A DNA stretch of 64,000 bases from an uncultured Clostridia bacterium (GCA_947165085.1 CAMUZA010000003.1:1-64000), one strand, 5' to 3'; counted from the first letter of the stretch, positions 47,184 to 54,804 are shown. The notes: generated from the sequence alone by a model not told the origin. Numbers and translations: made by a program.

Positions 47184-47717
47184 ATGGACAAGGAGACCCT
47201 TCGTCGGGAAATGAGAAGCATACGGCAGACGATGCGCGAGGAGGAAATCGCCGCAGCGTCGGACAGGCTGGCAGGGCGGCTCTTTGCCCATCCGCTCTAC
47301 CGCGCGGCGAAAACGCTCTACGTTTACCTGAGCGCAAATCAGGAGGTGCGGACGGATGAAATCATCCGGCAGGCGAGGAAGGACGGCAAGCTTGTCGCCG
47401 CGCCGAAGGTCTGCGGCAGCGAGCTGCGCTTTTTCTGGCTCAACGAAAGCACAACGCTTCAAACGGGCAGCTTCGGCATTCTGGAACCGGTGAACGGACA
47501 GGAGGCGGACGATCCGACCGCGCTTGTCCTGCTGCCCGGTCTGGCGTTCGACCGCTCGGGTCGTCGCCTCGGCTACGGCGGCGGCTACTATGACCGCTTT
47601 CTCGCTCGGGAAACAGAGCATCCGACCCTCGCGCTGTGCTATGGTTTCCAGCTTGTTGACGAACTTCCCGCCGAGCCGCACGACGTTACCGCCGGCGCGG
47701 TACTGGTCGCCGAATAA
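47184..47717 (+). CDS. 5-formyltetrahydrofolate cyclo-ligase
   Basis: Converts 5-formyl-THF to 5,10-methenyl-THF with ATP, returning a storage or inhibitory folate to one-carbon metabolism. The 177-residue protein has KETLRREMRSIRQTM, VYLSANQEVRTDEII, the ATP/folate site LVLLPGLAFDRSGRRLGYGG and GYYDRFL. Length fits the family. I choose ATG 47184 because AGAGGA (47172-47177) has 6-base spacing to it; ATG 47178 would have none, and the longer frame from 47064 passes through the repeat. Confidence 0.92.
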   Translation: MDKETLRREMRSIRQTMREEEIAAASDRLAGRLFAHPLYRAAKTLYVYLSANQEVRTDEIIRQARKDGKLVAAPKVCGSELRFFWLNESTTLQTGSFGILEPVNGQEADDPTALVLLPGLAFDRSGRRLGYGGGYYDRFLARETEHPTLALCYGFQLVDELPAEPHDVTAGAVLVAE

Positions 47718-47723
47718 AAAGAC

Positions 47724-47778
47724 TTGACAAAATTGGTTTATTGGAGTAAACTACAAATGCGGTTTATTCTGATAAACC
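47724..47778 (+). promoter_or_regulatory. BlaI-type promoter with two dyad operators
   Basis: TTGACA (47724-47729), 17-base spacer, TAAACT (47747-47752). Dyad 1, GTTTA-ttggag-TAAAC (47736-47751), overlaps the spacer and -10; dyad 2, GGTTTAT-tctg-ATAAACC (47761-47778), lies just downstream. The arrangement predicts autorepression by the BlaI-like protein. Confidence 0.8.
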
Positions 47779-47804
47779 AATTTTGCGTTACGGAGGACTG
47801 CTTT

Positions 47805-48176
47805 ATGGGTGATTTCGAGCTTGGCGCGGTGCAGGAGCGGTTTGCCGACCTCGTGTGGGCGCATGAACCCGTCGGATCGGGCGAATTGGTCAAAATATGC
47901 GAACGAGAACTGAACTGGAAGAAGCCGACCACCTACACGGTGCTGCGGAAGCTCTGTGAAAAGGGTCTTCTGCAGAACGAGAAGGGGATCGTGACCTCGC
48001 GGATTTCGCGCGATGAATTCTATTCGGCAAAGAGCGAGCAGGTCGTTTCGGAGTCGTTCGAGGGATCTCTGCCTGCCTTTGTCGCGGCGTTTATTTCGCG
48101 CAAGCATTTGTCCTCGCAGGAGGCGGACGAAATCCAACGCATGATCGATGCCTTCCGAAAGGAGGGAACGCCGTGA
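47805..48176 (+). CDS. BlaI/MecI/CopY-family repressor
   Basis: A 123-residue winged-helix repressor: residues 1-75 carry LGAVQERFADLVWAHEPVGS and the recognition region WKKPTTYTVLRKLCEKGLLQ, with the wing VTSRISRDEFY; the C-terminal helices (SFEGSLPAFVAAFISRKHLS) would dimerise. In this family the paired BlaR1 protease triggers cleavage or release of the repressor. GGAGG at 47792-47796 supports ATG 47805; an in-frame TTG at 47724 lies in the -35 box and is rejected. The stop overlaps the sensor start (GTGA at 48173). Confidence 0.92.
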   Translation: MGDFELGAVQERFADLVWAHEPVGSGELVKICERELNWKKPTTYTVLRKLCEKGLLQNEKGIVTSRISRDEFYSAKSEQVVSESFEGSLPAFVAAFISRKHLSSQEADEIQRMIDAFRKEGTP

Positions 48177-50923
48177 GCGCAGTCTTTCTCAAGCTCCTGA
48201 ACATGAGCATTACGGCGAGCTGGCTGATCCTTGCGGTGCTGGCTGCGCGGCTGCTGTTGAAGAAAGCGCCGAGGTGGATCGTCTGCCTGCTGTGGGGGCT
48301 TGCCGCGCTGCGTCTGCTGATCCCATTTTCCCTGCAGAGCGTCTTCAGCGTGGTGCCGAGCGCGGAAACGGTTCCCGTGGATATTGCCGTTTCGCCCCAA
48401 CCGGCGATCCATACCGGCTTCACCATTGTGAATCATACGGTCAATCCGATCCTTACGGAGACCTTTGCGCCGGATCCTACGGCAAGCGTAAATCCGCTGC
48501 AGACTGTCGTTTTCGTCGCGTCCGTCGTCTGGGCGGTCGGCGCGTCGATCCTGCTCCTTTACGCGCTGATCAGCTTTTTGCGGCTGCGGAAAACCGTTGC
48601 CGCGCGTGTGCCGATTGCAGAGCGCGTCTTTGCCTGCGACGAGGTCAAAACGCCGTTCATTCTCGGCGTGATTCGTCCGAAAATCTACGTTCCGTCCGCT
48701 ATGGGCGGGGAGACGCTGGATTGCGTGCTCCGCCACGAAGAAGCGCATCTGAAACGGCGCGATCACTGGTGGAAGCCGCTCGGGTTTCTTCTTCTGAGCC
48801 TCTATTGGTTCAATCCGCTCTGCTGGGTCGCCTATATCCTGCTCTGCCGCGATATCGAAACGGCGTGCGACGAAAAAGTCATCCGGGACATGGATCGCGA
48901 GAGCGTGGCGGCGTATTCGCAGGCGCTTCTGGACTGCGGCTTCCAAAGAAAAACAATAACCGCCTGTCCGCTTGCCTTCGGGGAGGTCGGCGTGAAGCAG
49001 CGCGTCAAAGGGATCCTGAATTACAAAAAGCCCGCGTTCTGGATCATTTTGATCGCTCTCGTCGTCTGCGTTGTGCTCGCGGTCTGTCTGCTGACCGACC
49101 CGCGCTCGGACGAACCGCCGACGGAGAGCACAAACGAATCGTCAGCAGAGAGTATGAGCGAATCGCTGCCGGAAGTCCCTTGGAACACCTGCGTGATTCG
49201 TGACCTTCAATATGCTTCCGGAACGTATTTTTGCGTTATCCGTTCTGACGCTACGCTGATATTTGCCGCAACTGATTCGGTTACCTCCATCTCGGCGTTT
49301 CTTGATAACAAAGACCCGCATCTGATCAGAGCGGAAGAGAAAAAACTCACGGCGGAAGAATTCAAGGAATTCACCGCACTGCTGGACGCAATTTACGAAA
49401 ACGGAACGCTCGAGCCTGCGCCGGAGCCGGATGAAAGCCGGCGTACCGGGATTGTCTGTGGCTCGGAATGCAGTTTCTGGTTGGACGGCGCGGAGATTGG
49501 CCCATATAATCTCGTCGCTTATAACGACTATCCTCCCGAAGAATACAGCAAGCTGCTGGACTGGATGCGGGAGCAATACAACAGCGCAGTGTTTTCAAAG
49601 AATGATCAAGCAATGGAAAATGCTGCTCCTGCCGCAGTAAGATGGTTTGATGTCCTGCATGGAGACGACCAATGGAGCGGCACGAAGCAGATCACGATCG
49701 ACGCATATCCGGACACCGTCTTTGAGTGCAATTCCAGTACGGTAACGGCCATCGTCGATCACACGCCCACAGAGCTGCTGAACGGAATGCCGATTCATAG
49801 CGTGTACGTCTGCGATCTGAACGGCGACGGCGCGCCGGAGATCTGCGCCACGGTCAGCTACGGCTCCGGCATGATCGATACAAGGCTCAGGGTGCATGAA
49901 ATGAAGTCGGGCGTTACCTATGTGCTCTCCGCAAGAGGCAAGTTTGATTATTGCCTGAATCTGCGAGACGGCAGCATGATCGTGGAAAAGCGCCGCTATG
50001 GAGCGAACCATGGAATGGGAGAGCTTGTTGCGACCGGCAGACTGACGCTGGAGGAGGACGGCCTGCATCTCATACTTGAGGGAGCGGAAGCGCGTGAAGA
50101 CGTCGACGCGGAACGAGAGCAATATGCCGCGCAGCAATACGCAACAGAGACATTTGTCTATGTTTATCCCGGCTCGAACCCGATCCCGATGCATACCGAC
50201 AACGTGTATTACTGCGATCTGAACGGCGACGGAGTGCCGGAGCGGTGCGAAAACGCTTTGTTTGGCTCCGGTTTTGTGGATGAAAGGATCTGCGTGTATG
50301 ACGGTCAGACCGGCGTTGAGTATGAGTTGTCTGCCCGGGGCGAGTTCGATTATCGGATCAGTCAGCAAATCGGAGAACTACTGATTGTGCAGAAACGCAA
50401 TTACAATGAGCAGGTAGTCATTGAGTTCGGTACGCTGGAGCTGGAGGGAGATGTTTTGCGCTTCGTGCCCATGAATCCGGCTCAAAACATAACGGAACTG
50501 CTCACCCGCATCTATACAGACGACGAGCTGACGGCGATCACTCAGTTTAAGGGAACGCTTTCGGAGCTGGGTCAGAAATACCCGATTGAATGTCTGCGGG
50601 AAGTCGGTTCCGGGAGCATGCTTTATGCCGTTTATCGGAGCGAAAGCAACGTGACGCTGCTCTATTTCGATCGGAACGGGGAGCAGCAGGGAATACCGAA
50701 AAAGTATCACATGGCGCACACGACAGAGGAATTCCAAACGCTGCAAGTCGGCGATACGCTGGACGACGTCAGGGCGTTCGATCCGTACGGCTCCTATCTG
50801 TGGCTGTATACCGGCGTGGAGCTGCCTCTCGTTTCAACACACTGCACGACGGACGGCTATTTGGTTTATATCGTATATAATGAAGACAACGTTGTGACAA
50901 AAATCGGAATCCGCATGATTTAA
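48173..50923 (+). CDS. BlaR1/MecR1-type M56 metalloprotease sensor with a large DLNGDG-repeat outer domain
   Basis: A 916-residue membrane protein. The N-terminal 310 residues form the M56 unit: helices at about 5-27, 36-53 and 108-132, the zinc site LRHEEAHLKRRDHWW near residue 188, and a last helix FWIILIALVVCVVLAVCLL near 290. The outside part of about 600 residues is not a recognisable penicillin-binding domain. It has a Ser/Glu-rich stalk and two repeats near residues 545 and 680 (VYVCDLNGDGAPEICATVSY and VYYCDLNGDGVPERCENALF) with the D-x-N-x-D-G calcium-loop pattern of EF-hand/FG-GAP units, each followed by LSARG-x-FDY. The ligand is therefore probably not a beta-lactam. Confidence 0.85.
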   Translation: MSAVFLKLLNMSITASWLILAVLAARLLLKKAPRWIVCLLWGLAALRLLIPFSLQSVFSVVPSAETVPVDIAVSPQPAIHTGFTIVNHTVNPILTETFAPDPTASVNPLQTVVFVASVVWAVGASILLLYALISFLRLRKTVAARVPIAERVFACDEVKTPFILGVIRPKIYVPSAMGGETLDCVLRHEEAHLKRRDHWWKPLGFLLLSLYWFNPLCWVAYILLCRDIETACDEKVIRDMDRESVAAYSQALLDCGFQRKTITACPLAFGEVGVKQRVKGILNYKKPAFWIILIALVVCVVLAVCLLTDPRSDEPPTESTNESSAESMSESLPEVPWNTCVIRDLQYASGTYFCVIRSDATLIFAATDSVTSISAFLDNKDPHLIRAEEKKLTAEEFKEFTALLDAIYENGTLEPAPEPDESRRTGIVCGSECSFWLDGAEIGPYNLVAYNDYPPEEYSKLLDWMREQYNSAVFSKNDQAMENAAPAAVRWFDVLHGDDQWSGTKQITIDAYPDTVFECNSSTVTAIVDHTPTELLNGMPIHSVYVCDLNGDGAPEICATVSYGSGMIDTRLRVHEMKSGVTYVLSARGKFDYCLNLRDGSMIVEKRRYGANHGMGELVATGRLTLEEDGLHLILEGAEAREDVDAEREQYAAQQYATETFVYVYPGSNPIPMHTDNVYYCDLNGDGVPERCENALFGSGFVDERICVYDGQTGVEYELSARGEFDYRISQQIGELLIVQKRNYNEQVVIEFGTLELEGDVLRFVPMNPAQNITELLTRIYTDDELTAITQFKGTLSELGQKYPIECLREVGSGSMLYAVYRSESNVTLLYFDRNGEQQGIPKKYHMAHTTEEFQTLQVGDTLDDVRAFDPYGSYLWLYTGVELPLVSTHCTTDGYLVYIVYNEDNVVTKIGIRMI

Positions 50924-50944: not shown

Positions 50945-50970
50945 AAAAGGGACGCGCCTGCGTCCCTTTT
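50945..50970. terminator. bidirectional terminator between convergent genes
   Basis: AAAAGGGACGC (50945-50955), loop GCCT, GCGTCCCTTTT (50960-50970). Confidence 0.9.
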
Positions 50971-52162: not shown

Positions 52163-54637
52163 TTATTTTCTTGCTTCGGGCAGGCTTGCCGCGGCGACGG
52201 ACTGACCGACGCGGCGAGTCTTCTCGTCCGGCAGCATGACGCGCACTTTTTCGGCAAGCTCCGGATATTCGTCCTGCATGATCGCAAGGCAGCTGTCGAG
52301 CACGATGCTGCCGCCGATGCCGGACATCACACGTCCGAGGACGATCATGTGGTGCACGTCGTAGAAGCGGCAATAGAGCTTCATCGTGTGGGCAAGATAC
52401 GCGCCGATTGACGCGAAAATCTTCCGCGCGCGCTCGTCGCCCTTTTCCACGAGCGCCTGCACCGCCTTGAGCTTTTCGGCGGGGGTCAGGCTCTCGTCGA
52501 GCTCGATTCCCGCCTTCGGCGCGAGCTTGATGACAGCGTCCTGTGAGAAGTACTTGCAGCCGACGCCGATATCGGTCGACCATTCGTCCGCCATCGCGCC
52601 CTCATAAAGATCGACGGGAGCGAAAGCAAGCTCATTGAGCCAGCCGAGGACGTTGCCGTCGGCGTCGACATAGCCGACCGCTTCGCTCGTGCCCATCGCC
52701 ATGCCCATGACGGAGCCGACTTCCATGCCCATCGCGCCGGCGAGGGCAGTCACGTCGCCGTCGTTTGCGACGACGATGGGAACGTCGCCCAGCTCCTTCG
52801 CGGCGCGGTCATAGATCGTCTTGACCAGCTCGCGCTTTTCTCTGGGGACCTTGATGAACAGGGAGGAGACCATCGGGCTGTTGCCGATGAACACGCCGGC
52901 GGAGGAAACGCCGATGCCGTCCACGCGCGGCATTTTGGACGCCGCTGTTTTGAAGGCGGCGACGATGCCGTCGAAGTGATACTGCGGGTCGGATTCCGTC
53001 TTCGGGTGCCAGACAACTTCCTCGGAGTAGACGGTTTTGCCGTCGATGACGGCGGAAACCTTGCGGTCGGAGCCGCCCGCGTCAAAGCCGATGCGGCAGC
53101 CGTCCATGTGACCGCCGATGTGGACGGCGGCCTCGTTCGCCTTAGGGCAGTCTTCCAATTTGCAGTCGATGACTTCAAAGGGAACCTCGTACACGTCCTG
53201 CATGAACTGCACGTCGAATTTGCGTTCGCCCTCAAGAGTGTACGCCTTTTGCAGCCGCTGCGCCAGCGCGCTGTTGCCGCAGATGTAGATGCGGAAGCCG
53301 CCGATCGACCACAGCAGGAACTTCACGTAGCGTTCGACGAAGCGGTAATCCGCCTCGGCAAGCTCAGGCGTGCCGTGGATCTTGGTATGATGCACAGAAA
53401 TCTTGCTCTTGTCGCGCTCGATGGCGATGGCAAGCGGCTGCGACGCACCCTTTTCATAGGCGTCGATCCAGACGCCGAACGGGATGAAATCCTCGTCGAG
53501 GACAGGCATATTTTTGACTTGATAGTCGATGCCCAGATAGTTCAGCGTCGGCTTCTTCGCGTTCGCGGCTTCTTCGCGGACGATCCTCTGCATTTCGTCC
53601 CACTTCTTCTCCATGTCGGCGACCAGCTTGAGCTGCGTGCGGGCACGGACGAGGTTATGATCGGGATAGGCGATCTTGAAATAGCGGTCGCCGTCGAGAT
53701 AGTCCGTCAGGAAGCGGACAGCCAGCTCCAGCGTGATGATCTTCGCGCCGAGCGGAAGAAGCTCCGTCTCTTTCTCGGTCAGACTGGGACAGGCAGTCAG
53801 ATAACCCCGCGTGTAGACGCGGAACAGATCGAGATTCAGCTCCATCTTGTCCAGATCCGGCTCATCCTCGGCGGCGGTCGCCGCGCCGAAACGGATAGAA
53901 TCACCGAAGTCGTACAGGGAAGAGCCGGGCATAACGGTGTCCAGATCAAGCACGCACATCGCCTTGCGGGTCTTCGCATTCAGAAGGACGTTGTTCAGCT
54001 TGGTGTCATTGTGCGTGACGCGGAGGGGCAGCTCGCCGGTCTCCAGAAGATGAACGAGCGTGCCTGCCTCCTGCTCCCGCGCTTCGATGAAGGCGATCTC
54101 GTCTCTGACGGTGATGGCTCTGTGGACGCGGTCGGCATTCAGCGCCTCGCGGAACTGACGGTAGCGGTTGACGGTGTTGTGGAACATGGGAATGGTCTCG
54201 TGCAGGGTCTGCGCAGGGAAATCGCCCAGCAGCTCCTGGAATCTGCCGAACGCGATCGCACTCTCATAGAAATCCTTGTCGGATTCCGGCGCTTCGAGGC
54301 AGATGCCGTCCGCGAATTCGTAGCAGCGCCAGTACTCGTCATCCTCGTCCACGTAGTAGTATGTACCCTCGTCGGAGAGCATGAAGTTCAGCGTTTCGCT
54401 CGGGTCGCTGACGCGGCCGCGCAGATACTCCGTCACAGCGCCGACGTTCTCCATGACCCCCTTCGGGTCGGAAAAGACGTACTTGTTGATGCGCTGCAAA
54501 ATGTAAACGTGCCGATCATCGGTCTGCACGCGATAGGTGCTGTTGATGTGTCCGGAGCCAAATTCACTGATGATAACGGGTGTTCCGCTAATTCGGAAAT
54601 GGGAAACTGCGGTTTCCGGCATCAATTTATTTTTCAA
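52163..54637 (-). CDS. bifunctional sugar kinase: APH/NahK-like N-terminus fused to a ROK kinase
   Basis: A protein of about 824 residues. Residues 1 to about 365 form a phosphotransferase of the APH/choline-kinase fold close to N-acetylhexosamine 1-kinase: VTHNDTKLNNVLLN is the catalytic loop with His-Asn-Asp and CVLDLDTVMPG the metal Asp, with QRINKYVF early on. From about residue 370 to 515 is a linker domain, and the last 310 residues form a ROK kinase: IGFDAGGSDRKVSAVIDG as ATP loop, VVANDGDVTALAGAMG, MAMGTSEAVGY. The ROK zinc motif (CxCGxxGC) is absent. The pair plausibly phosphorylates N-acetylhexosamines at C1 and C6, feeding nagA. GAGAGG with 9-base spacing supports the TTG at 54637; ATG 54646 would abut it. 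Confidence 0.85.
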   Translation of the reverse strand: MKNKLMPETAVSHFRISGTPVIISEFGSGHINSTYRVQTDDRHVYILQRINKYVFSDPKGVMENVGAVTEYLRGRVSDPSETLNFMLSDEGTYYYVDEDDEYWRCYEFADGICLEAPESDKDFYESAIAFGRFQELLGDFPAQTLHETIPMFHNTVNRYRQFREALNADRVHRAITVRDEIAFIEAREQEAGTLVHLLETGELPLRVTHNDTKLNNVLLNAKTRKAMCVLDLDTVMPGSSLYDFGDSIRFGAATAAEDEPDLDKMELNLDLFRVYTRGYLTACPSLTEKETELLPLGAKIITLELAVRFLTDYLDGDRYFKIAYPDHNLVRARTQLKLVADMEKKWDEMQRIVREEAANAKKPTLNYLGIDYQVKNMPVLDEDFIPFGVWIDAYEKGASQPLAIAIERDKSKISVHHTKIHGTPELAEADYRFVERYVKFLLWSIGGFRIYICGNSALAQRLQKAYTLEGERKFDVQFMQDVYEVPFEVIDCKLEDCPKANEAAVHIGGHMDGCRIGFDAGGSDRKVSAVIDGKTVYSEEVVWHPKTESDPQYHFDGIVAAFKTAASKMPRVDGIGVSSAGVFIGNSPMVSSLFIKVPREKRELVKTIYDRAAKELGDVPIVVANDGDVTALAGAMGMEVGSVMGMAMGTSEAVGYVDADGNVLGWLNELAFAPVDLYEGAMADEWSTDIGVGCKYFSQDAVIKLAPKAGIELDESLTPAEKLKAVQALVEKGDERARKIFASIGAYLAHTMKLYCRFYDVHHMIVLGRVMSGIGGSIVLDSCLAIMQDEYPELAEKVRVMLPDEKTRRVGQSVAAASLPEARK

Positions 54638-54804
54638 TGAGATCATCCTCTCAATGGTTTATTCATTCTATGACTGCGGCACCGATCCGGTGCCCCGCGT
54701 ACATTTCGTTCTATTCTACAACACATTTGTCAAAAAAGCAAGCAGATTTTCCATTTTTTGCGGTGCCGCCTTTTGCACGACCATACAATTTTTGCAAGCG
54801 AACA

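Follow-up and report, generated by a model that had tools for sequence, protein, structure and literature searches.

The operon described here probably encodes a self-contained, autoregulated BlaI-M56 pair in which the receptor consists of two FG-GAP-like calcium-loop domains and two unnamed domains, and not of a transpeptidase. It lies within the window, the stretch of 64,000 nucleotides that was analysed, on contig C3 of a 1.93-Mb Clostridia genome. The BlaI/BlaR1 system is commonly taken for an alarm for beta-lactams; in automatic annotation, such a pair appears as penicillinase repressor and BlaR1. As calcium-loop domains take the place of the penicillin-binding domain, the switch probably senses something other than penicillin, and the stimulus may be a protein acting against the cell wall.

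The first gene (47805–48176, + strand) starts with an ATG at 47805, with GGAGG upstream, and encodes a BlaI/MecI/CopY-type repressor of 123 aa, recognized by a domain scan and by matches to MecI structures (1.5e-05). The match to Penicillinase_R (PF03965) had an E-value of 5.7e-22 and a score of 78.7 bits, compared with a curated cut-off of 22.6. A spacer of 87 bp separates this ATG from the upstream neighbour, a 5-formyltetrahydrofolate cyclo-ligase gene ending at 47717, and the repressor stop codon overlaps the GTG start of the M56 gene at 48173 (GTGA). The sequence-only reading had assigned the system to 47724–50923, a span that is accurate apart from its left edge, since 47724 is the T of the −35 box TTGACA and the gene start is at 47805. 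A terminator-like hairpin (50945–50970, + strand), found by consensus scan only, ends the operon, and downstream of it lies a nagA-like amidohydrolase gene on the opposite strand. The ORF of this gene is overlapped by that of an 827-aa protein (window 52163–54646, − strand) in which an APH-type kinase domain and a weak match of the ROK type were recognized. The family scan gave no beta-lactamase match on the contig, in agreement with the earlier statement that no such gene is nearby; three matches to PF13354 are located elsewhere in the genome. An anti-phage defence role was ruled out, as PADLOC gave no match, and so was a mobile element, as the first DLNGDG domain (see below) had no plasmid match.

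The promoter, TTGACA-17-TAAACT (47724–47752, + strand), was identified by consensus scan and is arranged alike in relatives. Two predicted operator dyads of the form GTTTA-n6-TAAAC were delineated by a genome pattern search, comparison with relatives and shuffling: dyad 1, GTTTATTGGAGTAAAC (47736–47751), which overlaps the −10 box, and dyad 2, GTTTATTCTGATAAAC (47762–47777), which starts 26 bp after the start of dyad 1. When the 87-bp spacer was shuffled (first-order), two same-arm dyads appeared in 0.016% of the shuffles. With a PF03965 repressor and two exact dyads in its own promoter, the predicted autoregulation put forward from the sequence is upheld. Two exact dyads were present in the same place at 29 of 33 distinct loci encoding relatives with the same outer domain, and the dyad arms change together across relatives (GTTTA/TAAAC, GTCTA/TAGAC and TCTA/TAGA types); most of the spacers have a length of 6 or 7. 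A composite promoter-operator pattern was found in 57 of 197 genomes of the order, while the reversed control gave 4 hits. Among the 70 pattern sites read, a BlaI gene lay downstream at 59, together with an M56 gene at 58 of those. C. thermocellum BlaI_0696 and BlaI_1845 bind such repeats, as reported from DAP-seq and gel shift, and the rule stated for them is "two pairs of inverted repeats" (PMC8457756). Given the dyads of the relatives and these binding data, the operator design reads as real and conserved, with experimental precedent.

Four further pattern sites, each with a second dyad, precede genes for three lipoproteins and one single-pass protein. At L142, L158 and L175 (relatives G500, G089 and G091), secreted lipoprotein genes stand behind the same double-dyad promoter, and those of G089 and G091 are candidate regulon members because a BlaI-M56 pair with a similar operator occurs elsewhere in the genome. 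At L158, the lipoprotein gene is followed by a membrane-protein gene that is ABC-permease-like by eye. No operators were found before the genes of free DLNGDG lipoproteins at 11 loci.

A genome-wide search for GTTTA-n6-TAAAC had been proposed as a way to find the regulon; over the 1.93 Mb, the exact matches were the operon's own two dyads only, so the target found is the operon itself. One-mismatch sites occurred at 12 places, and the total of 14 places was lower than the 35 of a reversed-pattern control. A wider regulon built on the one-mismatch sites was ruled out, as their count lay below the control and 8 of the 10 sites read overlap reading frames. Of the remaining two, one is the promoter belonging to the second BlaI pair of the genome, and one is a single imperfect dyad approximately 200 bp before a VanW-like gene. 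A near-palindrome around TTTACATAATTTTATTATGGTAAAC, possibly a dispersed element, was seen in two places that otherwise differ (C35 near 14606 and C36 near 15123). A very small or self-only regulon has precedent in C. thermocellum, where BlaI_0696 controls three operons and BlaI_1845 one (PMC8457756). If the regulon is one operon, it is the receptor that is made on induction; either unrecognised sites control effector genes, or the receptor itself is the response. The lack of a second target in the genome, which leaves the physiological output obscure, counts against the proposed switch.

The second gene (48173–50923, + strand) encodes an M56 membrane metallopeptidase of 916 aa, for which the domain scan gave a Peptidase_M56 (PF05569) match of 8.3e-43 (147 bits, cut-off 31). 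The zinc motif HEEAH (residues 188–192; 48734–48748, + strand), located by motif search and comparison with relatives, is accompanied by ETACDE at residue 229. The last transmembrane helix, placed at about residues 288–308 (49034–49096, + strand) from the sequence and the layout of the relatives, is followed by an outer part of about 600 residues, as had been described along with the translational coupling of the two genes. Searches for relatives divided the outer part into domain A (residues 336–480; 49178–49612, + strand), which has no family and has relatives in the two closest orthologues only, two DLNGDG domains, and a C-terminal domain (residues 769–916; 50477–50920, + strand). The G+C content is 0.59 in the M56 part and drops to about 0.53–0.54 in the outer part.

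A transpeptidase domain (PF00905) was absent from the outer part in the domain scan, although two annotated BlaR1 proteins used as positive controls in the same kind of scan matched it at 1e-45 and 1e-40. The NCBIfam model blaR1_generic gave 81 bits against a cut-off of 400. The only SxxK of the outer part (S502-GTK, in DLNGDG domain 1) is not conserved among relatives. The statement that the outer part holds no beta-lactam domain was thus tested against true BlaR1 proteins and stands, and the transpeptidase fold with a catalytic SxxK that would have contradicted it was not encountered. The same absence extends to the M56 partners picked out by the operator pattern alone: a transpeptidase was present in 0 of 29, some of which are cut by the 3-kb stretch so that a few C termini are unseen. 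The outer domains of these partners were Ig-like, LRR or DUF4825 in some and matched no named domain in the rest. With no transpeptidase in any of the 29, BlaR1-like pairs without a beta-lactam domain are, on these sequences, the rule for this operator class in the order, and an M56 relay of this kind is widespread and not unique to our locus. The second BlaI-M56 pair of the genome (C6:26070–27053; L001, L003:6481–9664) has a TACA/TGTA-like promoter region, and its M56 protein of 856 aa also lacks a transpeptidase domain.

The two DLNGDG copies noticed in the sequence proved to belong to one domain family of about 150 aa, all beta, with an FG-GAP-type calcium loop. Domain 1 (residues 485–640; 49625–50092, + strand), defined from relatives, an alignment and an AlphaFold model, carries the calcium loop at residues 548–556 and a GSG loop at 564–566. 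Domain 2 (residues 645–768; 50105–50476, + strand), defined from relatives and a model, is without the initial portion of the domain, and its calcium loop spans 682–690. Both contain an ELSARG-x-FDY-like run (YVLSARGKFDY and YELSARGEFDY). In an alignment of 37 relatives, D548, D552, G553, P555 and E556 were invariant, and GSG 564–566 was present in 33–36 of the 37; the alignment and the model agree on a 9-residue FG-GAP-type DxNxDGxxE calcium loop in a beta hairpin. Pfam FG-GAP_3 matched the M56 protein (P0001) at 25.0 bits, below the curated cut-off of 26.9, and matched 30 of 37 family members at E<=1. The AlphaFold2 model of domain 1 (pLDDT 93.7, pTM 0.90) is all beta with 13 strands, and its best matches in a PDB fold search were nearly all beta-propellers, partial, with TM 0.25–0.46 and E >=0.003. 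On our reading of this model, the fold would be a short blade stack and not a closed propeller. A viral fold library returned mostly partial propellers and nothing at E<0.001. The fold prediction proposed for the outer part was informative for the DLNGDG domains, whereas for domain A and the C-terminal domain the model was not confident, the whole outer part having a mean pLDDT of 60; fold matches of the whole outer part (TM <=0.17) were set aside.

About 40 M56 proteins read, including a few duplicates from a single locus, carry the DLNGDG domain and keep HExxH; they come from several families of Clostridia. Wherever the upstream sequence suffices, a BlaI gene adjoins the M56-DLNGDG gene, except at L102, where it lies 2 kb upstream. 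The domain also occurs free at about a dozen loci across Clostridia, with a signal peptide or lipobox by eye, and it is sporadic, as it was found in 4 of 398 genomes drawn over the phylum. At L111:1992–6882, three consecutive genes encode products in which a membrane anchor is followed by one or two domains of the DLNGDG type, and the copy at this locus is the nearest to PliI. Domain 1 is also matched by two "Bacteriophage sp." records from human stool, MT838998.1 (L199) and MT840014.1; the former contains a ferritin-like gene besides a BlaI-M56-DLNGDG operon and has the look of a bacterial contig.

The outer modules appear to be swapped on a constant relay. In a sister species (G002), the neighbourhood (YfhO, DAGK, FCL, NagA and kinase genes) and the operators are retained, and the M56 protein is 82% identical up to residue 310, where an unrelated first outer domain begins; identity resumes in domain 2 and the C-terminal domain. 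The sister-species locus L030 is missing domain 1 and keeps domain 2 and the C-terminal domain at 59%. A weak relative of the C-terminal domain is found on a single-pass non-M56 membrane protein in another family of the order (L039:6581–8095), and a DLNGDG-related module on a second protein of this type (L116:1489–2412). These two proteins resemble putative anti-sigma factors, which suggests that sensor modules are common to several signalling chassis.

By analogy with BlaR1/MecI, from which the direction of signalling, the proteolysis and the cut site are inferred, the switch probably works as a BlaR1-type relay with another stimulus, as follows. At rest, a repressor dimer would occupy each dyad, over the −10 box and the start region, and would hold the operon low. 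An outside ligand other than a beta-lactam, more likely a protein or an envelope polymer than a small reactive drug, would bind the outer part, and the last helix would relay the change to the HEEAH metalloprotease. Cleavage of the repressor by this protease, at A95-F96 or close to it, would then induce the operon. This residue pair (in SLPAFVAAF) aligns to the scissile bond of MecI/BlaI; the Asn-Phe bond itself is absent from the repressor, and the Ala-Phe at the aligned place is conserved in the clade. Since Ala and not Asn precedes it, the cut site may differ, and an Ala-Phe cut would be a feature of the clade. In the BlaI proteins of the clade, GSLPAF[VIL]AAF (P0002 residues 87–96) is near-invariant where MecI/BlaI have the cleaved Asn-Phe.

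It is conceivable, although we consider it unlikely, that the DLNGDG domains serve chiefly as a scaffold stabilised by calcium and that the actual sensing is done by domain A or the C-terminal domain. The loss of domain 1 at L030 alongside a domain 2 and C-terminal domain kept at 59%, and the occurrence of a C-terminal-domain relative on the non-M56 protein of L039, are consistent with this. The DLNGDG domain is, however, the outer module common to the approximately 40 M56 proteins, partly by construction because the group was found by searching for it, whereas domains A and C are lineage-restricted.

A somewhat less probable proposal is that the DLNGDG domains bind a peptidoglycan hydrolase (a lysozyme, glycohydrolase or amidase of host or competitor) through the strand 2-3 loop, as PliI, XAC2610 and Tsi1 do, so that the pair would be a lysozyme or hydrolase alarm; the induced receptor, and the free lipoproteins of other species, may also sequester the enzyme. 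Three family members matched Pfam PliI (PF16743) at 6.8e-05, 0.003 and 0.076, all below the cut-off, and an alignment of the family profile with PliI, represented by three sequences, took in the calcium loop, strand 2 and the GSG loop (probability 75, E 2.5e-5). The invariant AGSGxYL of PliI falls on the GSG loop; in Aeromonas PliI, the aligned stretch was counted as S104-G-S-Y107, and S104 recognises the catalytic Glu of lysozyme (PMC10933484). XAC2610 has its calcium loop at 151–159 and its inhibitory loop, with Y170, at 165–173 (PMC10933484), the same spacing as 548–556 and 562–570 here, and the three inhibitors have a common beta-propeller topology (PMC10933484). The occurrence of the domain in lipoproteins fits the proposal, and RsiV demonstrates that a receptor-proteolysis route for lysozyme does exist in Firmicutes (PMC4183432). 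Nevertheless, the PliI similarity spans 26 columns only, a generic FG-GAP lipoprotein aligned with a nearly equal score (probability 20, E 1e-3), the equivalent of PliI Tyr107 is not retained in the family, PliI and XAC2610 were absent from the top 50 fold matches of domain 1, and the exact operator stands before no other gene of the genome. On account of the short stretch, the FG-GAP score and the loss of Tyr107, we give this proposal a low rank and do not file the domain as PliI. Of the specific leads on the ligand it is the best. Membership in the PliI family itself was ruled out, as the DLNGDG domain of the window was unmatched and the best member reached 23 bits against 27. A BlaR1-type relay with a PliI/XAC2610-like hydrolase-binding domain in gut Clostridia, whose receptor, once induced, would double as the protective product (sense and sequester), is a shade less probable again; it would explain both the one-operon regulon and the free lipoprotein versions.

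That beta-lactams are still sensed through an unrecognised active site is very improbable. The partner families are those of BlaI/BlaR1, the authors of the C. thermocellum study (PMC8457756) assumed that the response is to beta-lactams, and domain 1 contains an SxxK (S502-GTK) and a KSG (578), but Ser502 is not conserved, PF00905 is absent where the controls reached 1e-40 or better, and the model is all beta with no PBP among the fold matches shown. That the pair is a CopY-like switch for copper or another metal is equally improbable, as the weak CopY_TcrY match of the repressor (37 bits, cut-off 122) and the metal-type loop of the outer domain are set against a repressor end without the cysteine-rich CopY tail, an operator that differs from TACAnnTGTA and an operon without a copper gene.

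The preferred reading remains a BlaI-M56 switch with an outer receptor for a stimulus other than penicillin. The 29 of 29 partners without a beta-lactam domain, with their varied outer modules, point to M56 as a general receptor chassis; the operator class supplies a clean promoter pattern for finding members, and the DLNGDG family a concrete, testable ligand class.

Compared with BlaI/BlaR1 and MecI/MecR1 of staphylococci and bacilli, the pair has in common a Penicillinase_R repressor beside an M56 protease with HExxH and an outer C-terminal part, and autoregulation by dyads, here predicted from the sequence. It differs in lacking the transpeptidase or class-D-like sensor, in an outer part about twice as long, in an operon without beta-lactamase, in the operator GTTTA-n6-TAAAC and in Ala for Asn before the inferred cut. 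The C. thermocellum systems of BlaI_0696 and BlaI_1845 likewise have two inverted-repeat pairs before the repressor operon, tiny regulons and a BlaR1-type partner (PMC8457756), whereas their repeats are of the GTCTAT type and the half-site here is GTTTA, the operon here has no further genes, and their authors inferred beta-lactam sensing. PliI (PF16743) and XAC2610 (PMC10933484) resemble the DLNGDG domains in a calcium loop followed, at nearly equal distance, by a conserved strand 2-3 loop, and these inhibitors and Tsi1 also occur in secreted or lipoprotein forms; the similarity lies in the loop and hairpin only, and the domain here forms part of a signalling protease. RsiV, a lysozyme receptor and anti-sigma factor (PMC4183432), is a possible functional parallel in which an outer receptor is tied to regulated proteolysis of a regulator; its receptor domain and protease route differ, and we draw the parallel without a claim of homology.
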